A stretch of 21,120 bases of DNA from a virus. The notes below the pieces were generated by a model. It worked only from the letters and a program-made list of their open reading frames with translations. It was not told where the DNA came from and ran no database searches. The position numbers and the translations under genes are program-made. Positions 2,801 to 18,347 of the stretch are shown here, one piece after another (the first letter of the stretch is position 1; each line of letters opens with the position of its first letter). The stretch spans positions 1 to 21,120 of IMG/VR virus record IMGVR_UViG_3300020220_003619; one strand, given 5' to 3'.

Positions 2801-2992
2801 ATGATTATTATCGAAATAAAAAACAACGAAAACTTAGAAAGAGCATTAAAGACACTCAAATCCAAAGTAATTAAAACTAAACAAAATCAACTCCTTTTAA
2901 AAAAAAAGGAATATACTAAACCTTCCGTTGTAAAAAGAACCGCTAAGTTAAAAGCTATTTTTTTAGAAAGGAAAAAAAAACAATTAGATTGA
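2801..2992 (+). CDS. rpsU: Ribosomal protein bS21, phage-encoded
   Basis: 63 residues, the length typical of Bacteroidetes bS21. The N-terminal MIIIEIKNNENLERALKTLKSK matches the bS21 pattern (acidic/Asn turn, then E-x-ALK-x-x-K), and E-Y-T-K-P-S-V-V-K-R at 37-46 matches the F-x-KPSV-x-KR core, followed by a basic helix. bS21 sits on the 30S platform near the 3' end of 16S rRNA. In Flavobacterium ribosomes it helps hide the anti-Shine-Dalgarno sequence, with Tyr54 described as important; here residue 54 aligned on KPSV is Phe. It is the only plus-strand gene in the morphogenesis block, and its 3' end overlaps the convergent neighbour by 9 bp. Homologues are known in other phage genomes. Confidence 0.9.
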   Translation: MIIIEIKNNENLERALKTLKSKVIKTKQNQLLLKKKEYTKPSVVKRTAKLKAIFLERKKKQLD

Positions 2993-3685
2993 TTCTTCTA
3001 ATTTTTTCAATTTCAAATAAGTTATTTGGTCAAACTTTTCTTTACTAACTCTTTCCAAAGTTTCGGAGATTCTATCTCTGATTTCTGAGTCATTCTCATT
3101 CTTCATAATAGATTTCAATTTCAGGATAGTATTTTCTCTGAGAGATTCAAACTTTGTTTTTAAATTATCTGTGTCCTCAGACAATAGTTGTATGAACTCC
3201 TTTTTGGTGTTTTCATCAAAAGATTCCAAATAATTCGAAATTGTTTGATTTGCGATTTTCACCATTGATTTAATTGGAATATTAACAGCTTCAATTATTT
3301 TATGACTTTTCTTAGATGTTAAAACTTTAATAATGTTCTTTTTAGATTCGATTCTCTCGTGCAAATCAGTTTTATTTATATAAACTAAATTGTCAATATC
3401 TTGGTATCCATTTACAACAGTTCTATCAGAACTTGTATTGATTTTAGTTGTGGATAGAAGTTTCCTAATTAAAAAAATACCTTCGGATAAAAAATCTTTT
3501 GCATCATTTTCACTGAAATCTTGCGGGCTACTCAATTGGTCATAAATTGAATATATCTTTGATATATTCTTATTGTTCAGGATGTTCTGTTTAAACTCCT
3601 TCAAAGTTTTTTTGAACTCAGTCTCATTCCTATAAGACTCTAACAAGTTGTTTTCTATAACCGATTTTATTTGCCCGAATGTCAT
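2984..3685 (-). CDS. Helical phage protein of unknown function downstream of the portal
   Basis: 233 residues, Lys/Glu/Asn-rich and almost wholly helical by pattern, with coiled-coil-like stretches near 120-135 and 165-233. The N-terminus MTFGQIKSVIENNLLES looks amphipathic. No catalytic motif, signal peptide or membrane segment is seen. It lies 22 nt after the portal gene and before the protease. T4 has small core proteins gp67 and gp68 in this interval; this protein is longer and no homology to them can be claimed. A TATTTAT box at 3701-3707 is 15 nt before the start, and the leader holds only a partial AGGA. Confidence 0.8.
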   Translation of the reverse strand: MTFGQIKSVIENNLLESYRNETEFKKTLKEFKQNILNNKNISKIYSIYDQLSSPQDFSENDAKDFLSEGIFLIRKLLSTTKINTSSDRTVVNGYQDIDNLVYINKTDLHERIESKKNIIKVLTSKKSHKIIEAVNIPIKSMVKIANQTISNYLESFDENTKKEFIQLLSEDTDNLKTKFESLRENTILKLKSIMKNENDSEIRDRISETLERVSKEKFDQITYLKLKKLEESI

Positions 3686-3707
3686 CTTGGTATTTTTCCT
3701 ATAAATA

Positions 3708-5546
3708 TTATGAATTTAATAACTTATCTAACTCTTTTTCAATTTCTCCCAAAGATTCTTGAGCATGTCCTAATTGTAAAACTTTTCTTCCTTCAATCAT
3801 GTTATTTTCCACTAAAATATTCAAACTATCCATTCTACTTTCAGGAGCTAATTCAGGCTCACCTGCTGGTGGTGTTTCTAGTGTAGGTGCGGCTGGTTCA
3901 GGTAAAGCAGCACCGGCTTCAGGTGCAGGTCCAAGTTCCTCAGCACCACCTGGTGTTGTAGATGCACCCACGGAGGATGTTGCTCCGGTCGCACTACCAT
4001 AAAGTTTGTCAATATTATCAAAGAGACCAGATTTAGTAATTACAGTTGGTGTTGCCTTCAATTCCTCACCTACGGCTCTTTCAATTCTTTGTTGTTGTAA
4101 ATCAAGTCTGATTTCATCGTCTGACCAACCAAAGATGTGTTTCTTTGCCCATGTAGAAGATGTTGCCTGTATTCCATTTCCTGGGTCAGAAACCAAATCT
4201 TTATAAAGTAAGATTTTTTCTTTCCATACTTCCACAGTCAACAGGTCTGCCTGTTTTGATGGGTTTGTAAGTCCTAATGTGAAGTTTGTAAGTTCGTCTT
4301 CAAAACCCAACAAAAATAAATGTATTATTGCAATTTTATTTAGTTCTTGCAACATACTTTTTTGGATTCTGTTAATCGTTCTAGCAAAACGAATATCTTG
4401 TAATGAAAGATTTTTTCCATCCCCGACAACCTCTTCAAAACCTAAAAACGCTTTTGGTACACGTAAGGCTGTTAATAATTTCTTTTGTATATATTCGATA
4501 TCGGCAATCTCTGATAAGTTTTGAGCACCCTGTAGTGTATCAATTGGACTTGGTGCAGCTGGGTCTCGGACTGGAACAAAGTAATCTTGGTCTACAGCCA
4601 TTTGATTGAATCTCATGTCTACATTTCCAGTTTTACTATCTACAATTTGTTCTCTCTTAAACTTATTTGCAACGCGTTGTACGTATGCTTCAACATCATC
4701 ATCGTTCATATTACCCACAAAAACCTTAAATATTCTTCTTTCAGGGGCTCTTGAAGTTCTATAAATTAACATCGCATCCTCAGAAAGCAAAAGTTGTTTC
4801 CATATTCTTCTAGCTTTTTCCAACATTGAAGTTCCATAGGGTAATTTTCTATCATCACCCAATAATCTGAAGTGTGCAATCTCCCAAGATTGGAACTCCA
4901 TATTTTTGTTTTTCCATGTGAAATGAAGAGCCTTTTTCTGACTGTCTAATTCTTTTGTAATGTCAATAGAAATTTTTTGACTCACCCCAACCTCATGTCT
5001 TTCTATTTCGATTGTTGGTAATTGTTGACAACCAACAACACCTTTCTCAGGGTCCAATTTCAGATAAACAAAGTTATCACCATACTTACATGTATTTCTT
5101 GTCCACATAGGTAAGTTAGTGTTGATATCCAAGTTGTTGTTAAATAAATCAGCTAAAACACCTTTGATTCTTTTTGACTCGGAATATATTTGTAAAATGA
5201 AACCATCCTCATTTGTGGTTGTACATTCCTCAGCGTAAATGTCCAAGGCTGCAGATATTTCAGGAGTGTATTCCATTGACTCATAATCGTATTGAGCCGA
5301 CAACCTTGATGGTTCATAATAAATGGCTTGTGAGTATAAATTATTTTCAACCTTTGCCCATTGATTTGTAAGATAATAAGTTTGTTGTGCCTGAAGTTTT
5401 TCAGACTCATATTCTTGTTTACTTTTTGTTCTTAATAATTCTTTTTTATCAAACTTGAATGTTGGATAATCTTGATTTAATAAAGAATTAGGACCAAAAG
5501 TTTGGGATAGTCGTTGCCAAACCGTTAAATTTTGATTTTCTGCCAT
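3708..5546 (-). CDS. gp20: Portal protein, T4 gp20-like
   Basis: 612 residues against 524 in T4. The portal is the dodecameric ring at the capsid vertex that nucleates prohead assembly and is the DNA channel for the terminase. Residues ~85-115 (EYTPEISAALDIYAEECTT), the W-T-R-N-T-C-K-Y-G-D-N-F-V-Y stretch near 150, 'FRLLGDDRKLPYGTSMLEKARRIWKQL' near 228-254 and 'YRTSRAPERRIFKV' near 262-275 are the recognisable family blocks. The helical segment with LRVPKAFLGFEE is near 365. Residues ~515-575 are a Pro/Ala/Gly/Glu linker before a short helical C-terminus. The start at 5546 is 29 nt below a TATTTAT box at 5576-5582. Confidence 0.96.
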   Translation of the reverse strand: MAENQNLTVWQRLSQTFGPNSLLNQDYPTFKFDKKELLRTKSKQEYESEKLQAQQTYYLTNQWAKVENNLYSQAIYYEPSRLSAQYDYESMEYTPEISAALDIYAEECTTTNEDGFILQIYSESKRIKGVLADLFNNNLDINTNLPMWTRNTCKYGDNFVYLKLDPEKGVVGCQQLPTIEIERHEVGVSQKISIDITKELDSQKKALHFTWKNKNMEFQSWEIAHFRLLGDDRKLPYGTSMLEKARRIWKQLLLSEDAMLIYRTSRAPERRIFKVFVGNMNDDDVEAYVQRVANKFKREQIVDSKTGNVDMRFNQMAVDQDYFVPVRDPAAPSPIDTLQGAQNLSEIADIEYIQKKLLTALRVPKAFLGFEEVVGDGKNLSLQDIRFARTINRIQKSMLQELNKIAIIHLFLLGFEDELTNFTLGLTNPSKQADLLTVEVWKEKILLYKDLVSDPGNGIQATSSTWAKKHIFGWSDDEIRLDLQQQRIERAVGEELKATPTVITKSGLFDNIDKLYGSATGATSSVGASTTPGGAEELGPAPEAGAALPEPAAPTLETPPAGEPELAPESRMDSLNILVENNMIEGRKVLQLGHAQESLGEIEKELDKLLNS

Positions 5547-5583
5547 GATACAATTTAACCATTTACGTCAATAATATAAATAG

Positions 5584-7341
5584 TTATTTTGCACCGAATA
5601 ACCACCCATAGGTTTTATAATCTTGACGTGACGCACCATTCTGATAGGAGTTTTGTCTTCCCATCTGTGGGACCATTGGGTTAAAAAAGTTTGAACTATT
5701 TTTGTTTTCATTGATGGACGTTGCCCATGAGTTCAACATAGCTTTTGTATGGTTCACATTCTTCTGTATGGATTGGAAAGATTTCTCTCCGACGTATATA
5801 GCCATGGAAATTGCCATGATACAATCATCGTGTTGTCCCTTTTGGTGGTCAGGTCTTCCATTAAGGTAAATGAATGTATTCATCTCATTATAAGTTCTGT
5901 GAGAATATATTTTGAAATCGTGTCTAATTGCTTCTTCAAAAGCAGCAATTATTTGAACTCTTTTAGTATTGAAATTGATACCAGGTATTTTATCCTGTAT
6001 TTTGGGGTCCCATTTCCATTTCTTATTTGGGTCTAAATTATCTACATACAATCCATGTTCATAGTTCATTTCTTGTAACTTTCTCGCGGTTGAAACACCC
6101 ATACCTCCCGTGATATCTATAACTCCATAGGCGTTATACATAGAACCCCATTTATACCCAATCTCCGCCAATACATCAGGTGGAATCTTCCCAACATACT
6201 CCAAGACTTGTTCTCTTTCATCAAAATCAATTATTTGTATACTAGAATAATCTTCTGAATCTCCTCTCGATACGTCAAGTCCCATAATATATTTGTGACC
6301 TCCAACAGGTTCTTTGAAAATCCAAAGCGCAGAACCCATAAGTTTGGCTTGTGGTTCTCTTAATTGGTTTTTGGAAATTTTCTGCATAATATCCGGCTCA
6401 AAAACATTGTCTCCTGAACCAAGAAAATTACATTCTAATTCTTGTGCTACTTTTCTTTTATCAAACTTCAATTTTTTTACCATTCCTTCGAACCAAGAGG
6501 AGCAAGGTTTGTATCCTTGTTCAATATATTTTTTTAATTCACTATGGTCTCTATCGTATGGATTATCAATAGATAAATCAACAACAATGTCTTTGGGATA
6601 ATCTTCTCTATTGAGAAGATAATGAACTAAATCATTTGTTTTGACCATGTAAAGGTCTTTCGTATATCTTGGGTCTCTATACCAAAACATCTGAGAGATT
6701 TTAAATTCATTCATCCCTCTAAGAGCTTGATTGTAGATATCATAATAAATTGCATCATAGCCGTTTGGTGTGGAAATAACAATAACTTTACCACCTGTGG
6801 AAAGTGAGGCCATACACGCTGACCAAAAGTCATCATCCCCCTCTATGAATGCCGCCTCGTCAAAAATAAGAATCGTAGGTGTATAACCTCTCAAGGCATC
6901 TTTAGAAGTTGCTACTGCTTTTACTTCACAATCATTCGTGAGTTTGAAATGTCTTTGTGAGTTTTTTTCTTGTGAAAAACCAACACCAACCCATGCTGGC
7001 CATTGTTCTGTGAAACTTCTAACTTTATTAGCGAACTCAACTGATGTATCAAGTTTGTTCGCAATTATTAATATTTTTTCAGGTTTTTGTTTTTTGGCAA
7101 AAACTAATTTTTTCGAAGCCCAAGCTGCGGTAACTGTAGAAACACCAGCCTGTCTATATTTTAATGCAATATTTTCATTGAAAGAATCGTAATCTTCAAT
7201 CAAAGATATTTGGTCTGGAAATAAATCTAAAGGGACGTATTTGGAAACTGTGTTGTCGTAGGTTTGTAAATACGTACGAAGTGCATAAGGAGTGTTCCTC
7301 ATACACTTGGTACCTTCGATAATTACTTGTTCTTTAGTCAC
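5584..7341 (-). CDS. gp17: Terminase large subunit, T4 gp17-like
   Basis: 585 residues (T4 gp17 is 610). It pumps DNA into the prohead and cuts concatemers. The ATPase has a deviant Walker A, YRQAGVST at 62-69, where the usual GK[ST] Lys is Val. Walker B ILIFDEAAF (D161, E162) and the STPNG coupling motif at 190-194 are intact. The C-terminal RNase H-type nuclease shows D356 (MGLDVSRGD), D409 (VIDITGG) and the HDD at 504-506. The start codon is GTG, 6 bases after the stop of the upstream gene, so coupling is likely. The portal gene follows; T4's tail sheath and tube genes 18 and 19 are not between them. No small-subunit (gp16) homologue was recognised. Confidence 0.96.
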   Translation of the reverse strand: MTKEQVIIEGTKCMRNTPYALRTYLQTYDNTVSKYVPLDLFPDQISLIEDYDSFNENIALKYRQAGVSTVTAAWASKKLVFAKKQKPEKILIIANKLDTSVEFANKVRSFTEQWPAWVGVGFSQEKNSQRHFKLTNDCEVKAVATSKDALRGYTPTILIFDEAAFIEGDDDFWSACMASLSTGGKVIVISTPNGYDAIYYDIYNQALRGMNEFKISQMFWYRDPRYTKDLYMVKTNDLVHYLLNREDYPKDIVVDLSIDNPYDRDHSELKKYIEQGYKPCSSWFEGMVKKLKFDKRKVAQELECNFLGSGDNVFEPDIMQKISKNQLREPQAKLMGSALWIFKEPVGGHKYIMGLDVSRGDSEDYSSIQIIDFDEREQVLEYVGKIPPDVLAEIGYKWGSMYNAYGVIDITGGMGVSTARKLQEMNYEHGLYVDNLDPNKKWKWDPKIQDKIPGINFNTKRVQIIAAFEEAIRHDFKIYSHRTYNEMNTFIYLNGRPDHQKGQHDDCIMAISMAIYVGEKSFQSIQKNVNHTKAMLNSWATSINENKNSSNFFNPMVPQMGRQNSYQNGASRQDYKTYGWLFGAK

Positions 7342-11438: not shown

Positions 11439-11477
11439 CTAATTTTTCTTTATAAATATACCACCGAGCCAAATAAT

Positions 11478-12599: not shown

Positions 12600-12995
12600 T
12601 TACAGAAGACTAATTCTTTTCTTTTCTTGTTTTTTGAAATTGGGAACAAATACTGTGAGTATTCCGTCTTCAACAGTCGCCTCAATTTGTGAAGGGTCAT
12701 AATTTGTACCAATCTTGAATTGTTTGTCGATTACTTTTGTTTTTTCTTTTCCATCGATTTTATAAGTTCTTTTACCATCAATGTGAAGAACTCCATCTTC
12801 CATTTCAACCTTCAGATTGGTTTTGTTGTACCCTGGAACCTCAAAAAACAAATAAGCACCATCTTTAGTGTTATTAATCTCATAATTTTCATCACCATCT
12901 GACTTACTGATGACTGAGGTTTTGTAGTGATAATTTGAATTGTTTCCGATAATGTCTTCGAAAAGTCTGCTAATTTCACTGTTAGATAAAATCAT
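12600..12995 (-). CDS. hsp20: Small heat-shock protein (Hsp20/alpha-crystallin)
   Basis: 131 residues. Hsp20 proteins hold unfolding proteins without ATP. The alpha-crystallin domain runs from ~40 to 125: AYLFFEVPGYNKTNLKVEMEDGVLHIDGKR gives the first strands, and 'IEATVEDGILTVFVPNFKK' is the family's A-x-x-x-x-GiL-x-v-x-v-P signature. The C-terminus RISLL is a shortened version of the I-x-I/V oligomerisation tail. The short N-terminus (~35 residues) is usual. It is divergent from the ClpC gene across 164 bp and is followed by its own terminator. Hsp20 genes are known in marine T4-like phages. Confidence 0.93.
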   Translation of the reverse strand: MILSNSEISRLFEDIIGNNSNYHYKTSVISKSDGDENYEINNTKDGAYLFFEVPGYNKTNLKVEMEDGVLHIDGKRTYKIDGKEKTKVIDKQFKIGTNYDPSQIEATVEDGILTVFVPNFKKQEKKRISLL

Positions 12996-13159: not shown

Positions 13160-15175
13160 ATGCACGAACTTATGGATGACGATGAAAAAATGATGAGCAA
13201 GAAGCAAAAACCAAGCTCAGACAGTTCTACACCTGTATTAGATAATTTTAGTAGAGACCTCAACAAACTCGCTGATGAAGATAAACTCGACCCTGTAATT
13301 GGTAGAGATAGGGAGATTCTCAGAATCGCACAGATTCTATCTCGTAGAAAGAAGAATAATCCTATTATCATCGGTGAACCTGGTTGTGGTAAAACCGCAA
13401 TTATTGAAGGACTCGCAATGAAGATTGTCAGAGGTAATTGCCCAAGAAACCTAATTGACAAACGTATCGTAAATCTCGATTTGACCTCAGTGGTTGCGGG
13501 TACAAAATACCGTGGTCAATTTGAAGAAAGAATGAAGGTCATAATTGAAGAACTCCAAGCTAACCCGAATATTATCGTTTTCATTGATGAGATTCACACT
13601 CTTGTCGGTTCAGGTAATTCAGCTGGTTCAATGGATGGTTCTAATATTTTTAAACCAGCTTTATCCCGTGGTGAAATTCAAGTCATTGGAGCAACCACTC
13701 TCGATGAATTCCGTAAGAATATTGAAAAAGATGGAGCTCTTGAACGTAGATTCCAAAAAGTGATTGTTGAACCTTCAAGTGTTATAGAGACGATTACAAT
13801 TCTCAAAAATATCAGAGACAAATATGAAACTTTCCATAAAGTATCATATTCAGACGAGATAATCGAAACTTGTGTAAAATTAGCTGACCGCTATATCACA
13901 GATAGAGAGTTTCCTGATAAAGCTTTTGATATTTTAGATGAGGTAGGAGCACGTATGCAAACTGAAATAAAGGTTCCTGAAGCAATTGAAGAACTTAAAA
14001 AGAAAGCAGCTGAAATTAAACAAATGAAAATGGATGTCGTAAAAAAACAGAATTACGAACAAGCAGCAGAACTAAGGGATAGAGAAAAAAAGATTCTTAC
14101 CAAACTTGACCATGAGAAAACCAAGTTTGAAGAACAACTCATCAAAGACAAACAAAAAATATCCCTCGATGATGTCTATGATGTGGTATCTAATATGACA
14201 AAAATACCTGTTAACAAAATGTCTGTTGATGACACTAAAACTCTTATCAATTTGGATAAGACTTTAATGGAAAAAGTCATAGGTCAAGACGAAGTAATTA
14301 AGAAAGTAGTCAAGTCTATCAAGAGAAATAGATTAGGTATCAAAGACCCTAACAGACCAATTGGTTCATTTGTATTTTTAGGTTCTACAGGTGTAGGTAA
14401 AACTCACTTCGCTAAACAACTTGCTAAAGAAATGTTTGGCACCGAAGATTCACTTATTCGTGTTGATATGAGTGAGTATCAAGAAAAGCACACCATATCA
14501 AAATTGGTTGGAGCACCCCCTGGTTACGTTGGATATGATGAAGGTGGTCAGTTGACAGAAAAGGTAAAAAACAAGCCATACTCTGTGATTCTTTTCGATG
14601 AGGTTGAAAAAGCGCATAAAGATGTTTTTACTGTTCTTCTTCAGATTTTGGATGATGGACACGTTACCGATAGTTTGGGTAGAAAAATCAATTTCAAAAA
14701 CACCCTCATCATTTTAACATCCAACTTGGGTGTTAAGAAATTACAAGATTTCGGAACAGGTATTGGATTCAGTAGTAATACATATTCAAACGAGGAAGCT
14801 AAAAAACAAATGTTAGTCAAGGAGATGAAGAACTTCTTTAGTCCCGAGTTTATCAATCGAATAGACGATACAGTTATTTTCAATACTTTGACCTCAGAAA
14901 ATATCAAACAAATCACGAAGATTGAGTTGAATAAACTTGTAAGTAGACTGAGTGAAATGAAATACAATTTCATCTACGATGATACTTTGGTAGAGTTTCT
15001 ATCTAAAGCAGGTTTTGATGAGTTATACGGCGCAAGACCTCTAAAAAGAGCAATACAAGATAAAGTCGAGGATTTGATTTCCGAGGAGGTCCTCACCGGT
15101 AAATTAGTAGAAAACAAAACCTACGAAATTAAAGTAGATGGAGAAAATCTAAAAATTCAGAAAAAAGGGAGATAA
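13160..15175 (+). CDS. clpC: ClpC/ClpA-type AAA+ unfoldase lacking the N-domain
   Basis: 671 residues, about 150 fewer than bacterial ClpC because the N-terminal Clp_N repeat domain is absent; it starts with ~30 polar residues. AAA1 has Walker A GEPGCGKT at 72-79, Walker B VFIDEI at 140-145 and FEERMK after the pore region. A UVR-like helix (QNYEQAAELRDRE, ~297-309) replaces the long ClpB middle domain. AAA2 has GSTGVGKT at 408-415, the GYVGYDEGG pore loop at ~455-463 and VILFDE at 476-481. GIGF at 534-537 lies where ClpA/ClpC carry the ClpP-docking IGL/IGF loop. It should unfold proteins and feed a ClpP, presumably the host's, as none is in the window. The stop codon lies in a terminator hairpin. 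Confidence 0.95.
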   Translation: MHELMDDDEKMMSKKQKPSSDSSTPVLDNFSRDLNKLADEDKLDPVIGRDREILRIAQILSRRKKNNPIIIGEPGCGKTAIIEGLAMKIVRGNCPRNLIDKRIVNLDLTSVVAGTKYRGQFEERMKVIIEELQANPNIIVFIDEIHTLVGSGNSAGSMDGSNIFKPALSRGEIQVIGATTLDEFRKNIEKDGALERRFQKVIVEPSSVIETITILKNIRDKYETFHKVSYSDEIIETCVKLADRYITDREFPDKAFDILDEVGARMQTEIKVPEAIEELKKKAAEIKQMKMDVVKKQNYEQAAELRDREKKILTKLDHEKTKFEEQLIKDKQKISLDDVYDVVSNMTKIPVNKMSVDDTKTLINLDKTLMEKVIGQDEVIKKVVKSIKRNRLGIKDPNRPIGSFVFLGSTGVGKTHFAKQLAKEMFGTEDSLIRVDMSEYQEKHTISKLVGAPPGYVGYDEGGQLTEKVKNKPYSVILFDEVEKAHKDVFTVLLQILDDGHVTDSLGRKINFKNTLIILTSNLGVKKLQDFGTGIGFSSNTYSNEEAKKQMLVKEMKNFFSPEFINRIDDTVIFNTLTSENIKQITKIELNKLVSRLSEMKYNFIYDDTLVEFLSKAGFDELYGARPLKRAIQDKVEDLISEEVLTGKLVENKTYEIKVDGENLKIQKKGR

Positions 15176-17742: not shown

Positions 17743-17925
17743 AACTTTTATAAATACTTTTTCATCTTTATTTTCATCCCATTAAAAAAAACACACACAT
17801 CAAGAGACATATCAAGAGGATTCAATATTTGAAATGTTCAAACCGAACCTTCATAATCGGTTCTATTGGTAATTTTGGTTTTTTGTGAATTATTTATATA
17901 TTTGTACTTTGTTATTTGAAATTAT
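17743..17925. other. Intergenic region between the unknown gene and tmRNA
   Basis: 183 bases without a gene. It holds the minus-strand TATTTAT box for the gene on the left, an AACCGA/TCGGTT hairpin at 17841-17862 with no T run, and the tmRNA promoter at its right end. Confidence 0.6.
17874..17904 (+). promoter_or_regulatory. Bacteroidetes-type promoter for tmRNA
   Basis: TTTG at 17874-17877, a 19-nt spacer and TATATTTG at 17897-17904 match the Bacteroidetes primary-sigma consensus (TTTG at -33, TAnnTTTG at -7). Transcription would start about 10-20 nt before the mature tmRNA end. A TATTTAT box at 17891-17897 runs into the -7 element. Confidence 0.6.
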
Positions 17926-18347
17926 GGGGAAGTAAAGGCATCGATTGGCGTGTTTAGATATAGGTGGCACGTAGGAGCTGAATTAACTCCTCAAAAACTG
18001 ATTTGAAAAAAAAATGACAATACTTTGTCAAAAATGGCTCTTCTTGGCTTAATTGTTGAGGAAGCTGTTGTCGAAGCTTAGTAGTTTTGACAACGTCGGG
18101 TCGGTAAGGACACGTAACCTAGGAACAGAAGTCCATGAGGTTTGACAAATACCACGTGATTAAGTTCAGAAAATTTGTCAGGAGGTGTTTTCGGTTCAAT
18201 CCGATTTAATAGGAACCGACCACAGTTGTGAGTTCTGATGGAAAAATAAGAACTTTCTATTTGTTGATTGAGAACCAATCAAATAAACGTGTAGTCACTT
18301 ATAGTTATCGCGAACAAGACACGGGTTCGACTCCCGTCTTCTCCACC
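17926..18347 (+). ncRNA. ssrA: tmRNA (ssrA) with an unusual tag frame
   Basis: tmRNA frees stalled ribosomes and adds a degradation tag. The acceptor stem pairs GGGGAAG (17926-17932) with CTTCTCC (18338-18344), keeping the G3-U pair that marks an alanine tRNA. The T arm is ACGGG-TTCGACT-CCCGT (18321-18337). CCA is not fully encoded (ACCG). Pseudoknot PK1 (AGGAG/CTCCT), PK2 (GGAC/GTCC and AACCT/AGGTT), PK3 (TGACAAA/TTTGTCA) and PK4 (TCGGTTC/GAACCGA) are all visible. H5 is GTTGTCGAA (18067-18075) paired with 18086-18094, and its loop carries tandem stops TAG TAG (18079-18084). The frame into those stops ends LIVEEAVVEA, not the ALAA usual in bacteria. The resume codon is uncertain (GAC 18016, AAA 18031 or GCT 18037). 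Confidence 0.93.

Follow-up and report, generated by a model that had tools for sequence, protein, structure and literature searches.

Residues 19–28, rather than residue 54, appear to mark a group of Bacteroidota-type phage bS21 proteins whose genes lack a Shine–Dalgarno sequence

Among the ribosomal proteins encoded by viruses, bS21 is the most common, and the phage-encoded protein is a candidate tool for redirecting translation. The closest described systems are the 47 phage genomes of Chen et al. 2022, which form five clades (a–e) and have predicted Bacteroidetes hosts (PMC9723584). In these phages bS21 lies on the reverse strand within the region of the TerL, portal, protease and MCP genes, it is transcribed with the head genes, and its substitution into the host ribosome has been proposed (PMC9723584). 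The same authors named four divergent residues in the region of about residues 21–28, found position 54 to be usually Tyr, with a few His and one Phe among 61, and argued that a ring at position 54 preserves stacking on A1534 (PMC9723584). On the host side, the Y54A substitution and a C-terminal deletion in the bS21 of F. johnsoniae (PDB 7jil) both lead to more use of mRNAs with a strong Shine–Dalgarno (SD) sequence, and McNutt et al. 2023 tied the SD of the host rpsU gene to autoregulation by bS21 (PMC9976891). A more distant system is the bS21 of pelagiphage HTVC008M (Mizuno et al. 2019), which was shown to enter E. coli ribosomes and brought their in vitro translation down to about 5% (PMC6375957).

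We call the stretch of DNA analysed here the window; it comprises 21,120 bases of an IMG/VR virus record and carries a bS21 gene at 2801–2992 on the plus strand. A sequence-only reading had described a complete 63-residue bS21, and this description holds: the open reading frame matches PF01165 with 42 bits (cut-off 27; profile positions 2–50 of 55) and PHROG 21469 ‘ribosomal protein S21’, and its residues 1–62 align without a gap to residues 1–62 of F. johnsoniae bS21 (PDB 7jil chain z). It is a real gene, rightly read, and of a kind already described. Both the finding and the central hypothesis of substitution are therefore not new, because Chen et al. 2022 had reported the two together. The host and phage proteins share the KPSVVKR stretch and an aromatic residue 54, but they differ at residues 19–28, at the C-terminus and at position 54 itself, where the host has Tyr and the phage Phe; the phage gene also lacks an SD. 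The pelagiphage protein, which has been seen to enter E. coli ribosomes, is likewise phage-encoded, but it is of alphaproteobacterial origin and host.

The gene is reversed inside a minus-strand cluster that runs from the T4-like terminase large subunit (5584–7341) through the T4-like portal protein (3708–5546) to the prohead core protease of the Peptidase_S77 family (1506–2228), all assigned by Pfam and PHROG. It is the sole plus-strand gene between portal and protease, as had been claimed. Its divergent neighbour is a conserved hypothetical gene of 145 aa with no known family (2268–2705, minus), and its convergent neighbour, a conserved hypothetical gene of 233 aa (2984–3685, minus), overlaps the bS21 3′ end by 9 bases. 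When each distinct phage sequence of this type is counted once, bS21 and its divergent neighbour lie on opposite strands in 94 of 94 cases; wherever they are seen, the convergent neighbour (91 of 91), the portal (89 of 89) and the protease (90 of 90) are likewise on the other strand from bS21. The reversed arrangement recurs wherever the neighbours are present and is not due to chance. The window and the phages of Chen et al. 2022 (PMC9723584) have in common a reversed bS21 flanked by two hypothetical families, an aromatic residue 54, a stretch around residues 21–28 that departs from the host sequence, and Clp protease and chaperone genes. In the window, a Clp-type AAA+ protease subunit (13160–15175, plus) and an Hsp20 chaperone (12600–12995, minus) lie close to the head genes. 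Near the contig edge, positions 224–517 are tandemly repeated, with periods of about 48 and about 75 bases, and the copies of the longer period are 97% alike.

Four viral scans yielded 226 sequences, the window among them; some contigs are represented more than once, and the distinct bS21 proteins number 102. For comparison, host sequences were drawn at phylum level around a Rikenellaceae genome, which gave 70 distinct proteins. In a tree that rests on 63 columns and leaves many forks unresolved, 100 of the 101 distinct viral sequences cluster together, separately from the bS21 of Bacteroidota (SH-aLRT 97), and the window bS21 is placed with the other phage proteins. The lone viral sequence outside this group, L311, is almost the same as a host protein. 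No named phage record matched the window bS21, and when the phage protein was searched against bacterial genomes, a single distant match was obtained, in Rikenellaceae. A second viral set (contigs L312–L331) carries RYKYKVIKTKQ or similar in the same gene neighbourhood, and its bS21 is intermediate between the host and the main phage type.

The sequence-only reading placed most weight on codon 54 (TTT, 2960–2962). The gap-free alignment does set Phe, not Tyr, opposite F. johnsoniae Tyr54. However, the phage copies do not form a clade with Phe54, which was the test proposed in that reading: in the 93 distinct phage proteins of this type residue 54 is always aromatic, being Tyr in 87, His in four and Phe in only two. 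The two Phe54 sequences, the window and L005, are 97% identical and are nested among Tyr54 phages in the tree, which together with the alignment rules out Phe54 as a clade marker. The apparent Thr, Val, Ile or Asn at position 54 in a few phages is an indexing artefact of one-residue deletions, and the aligned residue is Tyr. In the host draw, aromatic residues at this position are Tyr (21) and His (one), and the remaining hosts have Arg on the alignment. Phe54 is here confined to one lineage, and it is a minor local variation rather than a defining feature of these phages.

Comparison of the same 93 sequences points instead to residues 19–28 as the signature of the phage protein. This block, LKSKVIKTKQ in the window (codons at 2855–2884), is identical in 93 of 93 at L19, K20, K22, V23, I24, T26, K27 and Q28, with S21 in 91 and K25 in 92. 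Bacteroidota hosts mostly have [FY]K[RK]KF[DE][KR]TG[VT] here, so that the phage protein differs at about six of the ten positions. Near-complete invariance over a wider set is a sharper version of the divergence statement made by Chen et al., following whom the block lies in the part of the protein close to the mRNA path (PMC9723584). That residues 19–28 are so uniform among diverse phages and yet unlike those of hosts suggests a specific function.

The second distinguishing property concerns translation initiation. An SD-like motif precedes rpsU in 53 of the 70 distinct host sequences, whereas none was found before the 102 phage bS21 genes, including that of the window. Given that the host SD is tied to autoregulation, the phage copy appears, by inference, to stand outside that loop. 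The lack of a strong SD on phage bS21 genes is new relative to Chen 2022. More broadly, four phage records (321, 122, 109 and 62 kb) were searched for SD-like words at −20 to −5, with internal in-frame ATGs as the control and genes taken as the longest ATG open reading frames, a crude calling method. SD-like words were not enriched at gene starts in any of the four, where they occur at or below the internal-ATG rate; AGGA in the 321-kb phage, for example, precedes 13 of 336 starts and 120 of 1703 internal ATGs. On this basis, SD use by the phage genes was rejected. Around −11 to −13 the start regions are rich in A, as described for hosts. These phages combine a Bacteroidota-type bS21 with SD-less genes; were the anti-SD exposed, there would be no viral SD for it to pick out.

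A promoter-like box, TATTTATA, is also associated with these genes. The variant TATTTCTA lies 12 nt before the bS21 ATG (2789–2796, plus), and of 94 distinct phage bS21 genes, 68 have their best variant 12–15 nt before the ATG. Within the window the box recurs 22 nt before the ATG of the 233-aa gene (3700–3707) and at 5575–5582 by the portal gene, and further copies are seen at 11451–11458 and 17749–17756. Upstream of genes in the 321-kb phage it occurs 43 times against 1.9 expected, and its reverse complement eight times, so that the signal is strand-specific; a strand-specific box is present in G002 (this 321-kb phage), G003, G004 and G008. Its distance to the ATG is bimodal, at 11–13 and about 19–24, and the A fraction between box and ATG is 0.54 in the far class, which has an A-rich stretch, versus 0.28 in the near class. 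Spacing is maintained among orthologs with aligned N-termini: 12 pairs are near–near, 16 far–far and none switches, and eight others are boxless or differently spaced. Were the box to act as a −10-type element, a spacing of 11–13 would place the first RNA base roughly at the A of the ATG, which predicts a leaderless bS21 mRNA.

Stable-RNA genes did not confirm the box as their promoter. It was not seen before the tRNA genes of two phages, save for one distal TATTTGTA, and it is found beside the window tmRNA but is absent beside that of G002. Because of this mixed result, the stable-RNA genes do not prove the box to be transcriptional. The RNR and DNA polymerase genes also have variants of the box, at a greater upstream distance, and a strictly late role is therefore not claimed. 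Full-text literature searches of limited coverage returned no report of the box, and neither it nor the missing SD is part of the account of phage bS21 in Chen 2022. A sigma-factor-like protein of 248 aa is encoded about 15 kb from bS21 in G002 (93769–94515, plus; L134:13769–14515); its best PHROG, ‘late sigma transcription factor’ (E = 0.043), is only suggestive, and three more phages of the group have weak Sigma70_r2 matches at comparable positions. The two tmRNA genes, at 17926–18347 (plus) in the window and 125442–125835 (plus) in G002 (L136:5442–5835), have predicted tags ending in VVEA and TVVA (ARAGORN: VEEAVVEA and AEEATVVA). The tags of host Bacteroidota tmRNAs end in LAA, and the phage tags therefore look altered at the end read by proteases.

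We consider it likely that the window bS21 belongs to a large T4-like Bacteroidota phage, one lineage within the group described by Chen et al., and that it would substitute in host ribosomes while the anti-SD tail is kept sequestered. The protein would probably be expressed with the virion genes and would enter host 30S subunits, replacing host bS21 or acting alongside it. With an aromatic residue at position 54, it would hold the 16S 3′ tail sequestered just as the host protein does, so that the infected ribosome would still initiate on SD-less mRNAs, which are the kind that the phage makes. Free of SD-based autoregulation, the phage gene would be translated by ribosomes replete with bS21. 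Expression timing, ribosome incorporation and the effect on mRNA choice are all inferred. The sequence-only reading had coupled replacement of host bS21 to a shift in anti-SD exposure. The first part is supported in that the phage protein is of Bacteroidota type and very likely capable of entering host ribosomes, a hypothesis that is in print (PMC9723584, PMC6375957); the second, with its favouring of viral mRNAs, is unsupported given the four SD-poor phages.

Among the alternatives, the one that survives best, although we regard it as rather improbable, is that the phage merely supplies bS21 that has been lost or become limiting late in infection, and that this protein works like that of the host. 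The conserved fold positions, the aromatic residue 54 and the missing SD autoregulation all agree with such a role, but the phage-specific uniformity of residues 19–28 argues against it. A somewhat less probable proposal is that SD-less, partly leaderless phage mRNAs arise from a TATTTATA promoter and that residues 19–28 retune Bacteroidota ribosomes for initiation on leaderless or very-short-leader mRNAs, the bS21 mRNA itself being leaderless and outside SD autoregulation. Slightly less probable again is a poisoning rather than a retuning role for phage bS21, which the pelagiphage result (PMC6375957) allows: the protein would mainly halt host translation or initiation on host mRNAs, with other phage factors saving viral translation. 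The divergence of residues 19–28 from the host at most positions would fit; however, E. coli is a non-cognate host for the pelagiphage assay, the bS21 gene sits among virion genes that need late translation, and phage start regions have the make-up described for hosts. Finally, we give very little credence to the idea that Phe54 loosens the grip on the 16S 3′ tail, so that the anti-SD is bared and translation moves towards viral mRNAs. Tyr54 is a contact residue, Y54A boosts translation of strong-SD reporters (PMC9976891), and the window does have Phe. However, Phe retains the ring that stacks on A1534, and the published loosening of the tail was caused by Y54A, in which the ring is lost (PMC9976891); Tyr or His is present in 91 of the 93 distinct phage proteins, and phage mRNAs show no SD enrichment.

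Substitution of phage bS21 into host ribosomes with the tail kept sequestered thus remains our preferred reading, and the comparison shifts attention from residue 54 to residues 19–28. Selection of mRNAs by their SD is an unlikely purpose of bS21 in these phages; escape from rpsU autoregulation, or leaderless or short-leader initiation, are suggested alternatives. We believe that the features worth following are the near-invariance of residues 19–28, the absence of an SD and the leaderless start that the box predicts.
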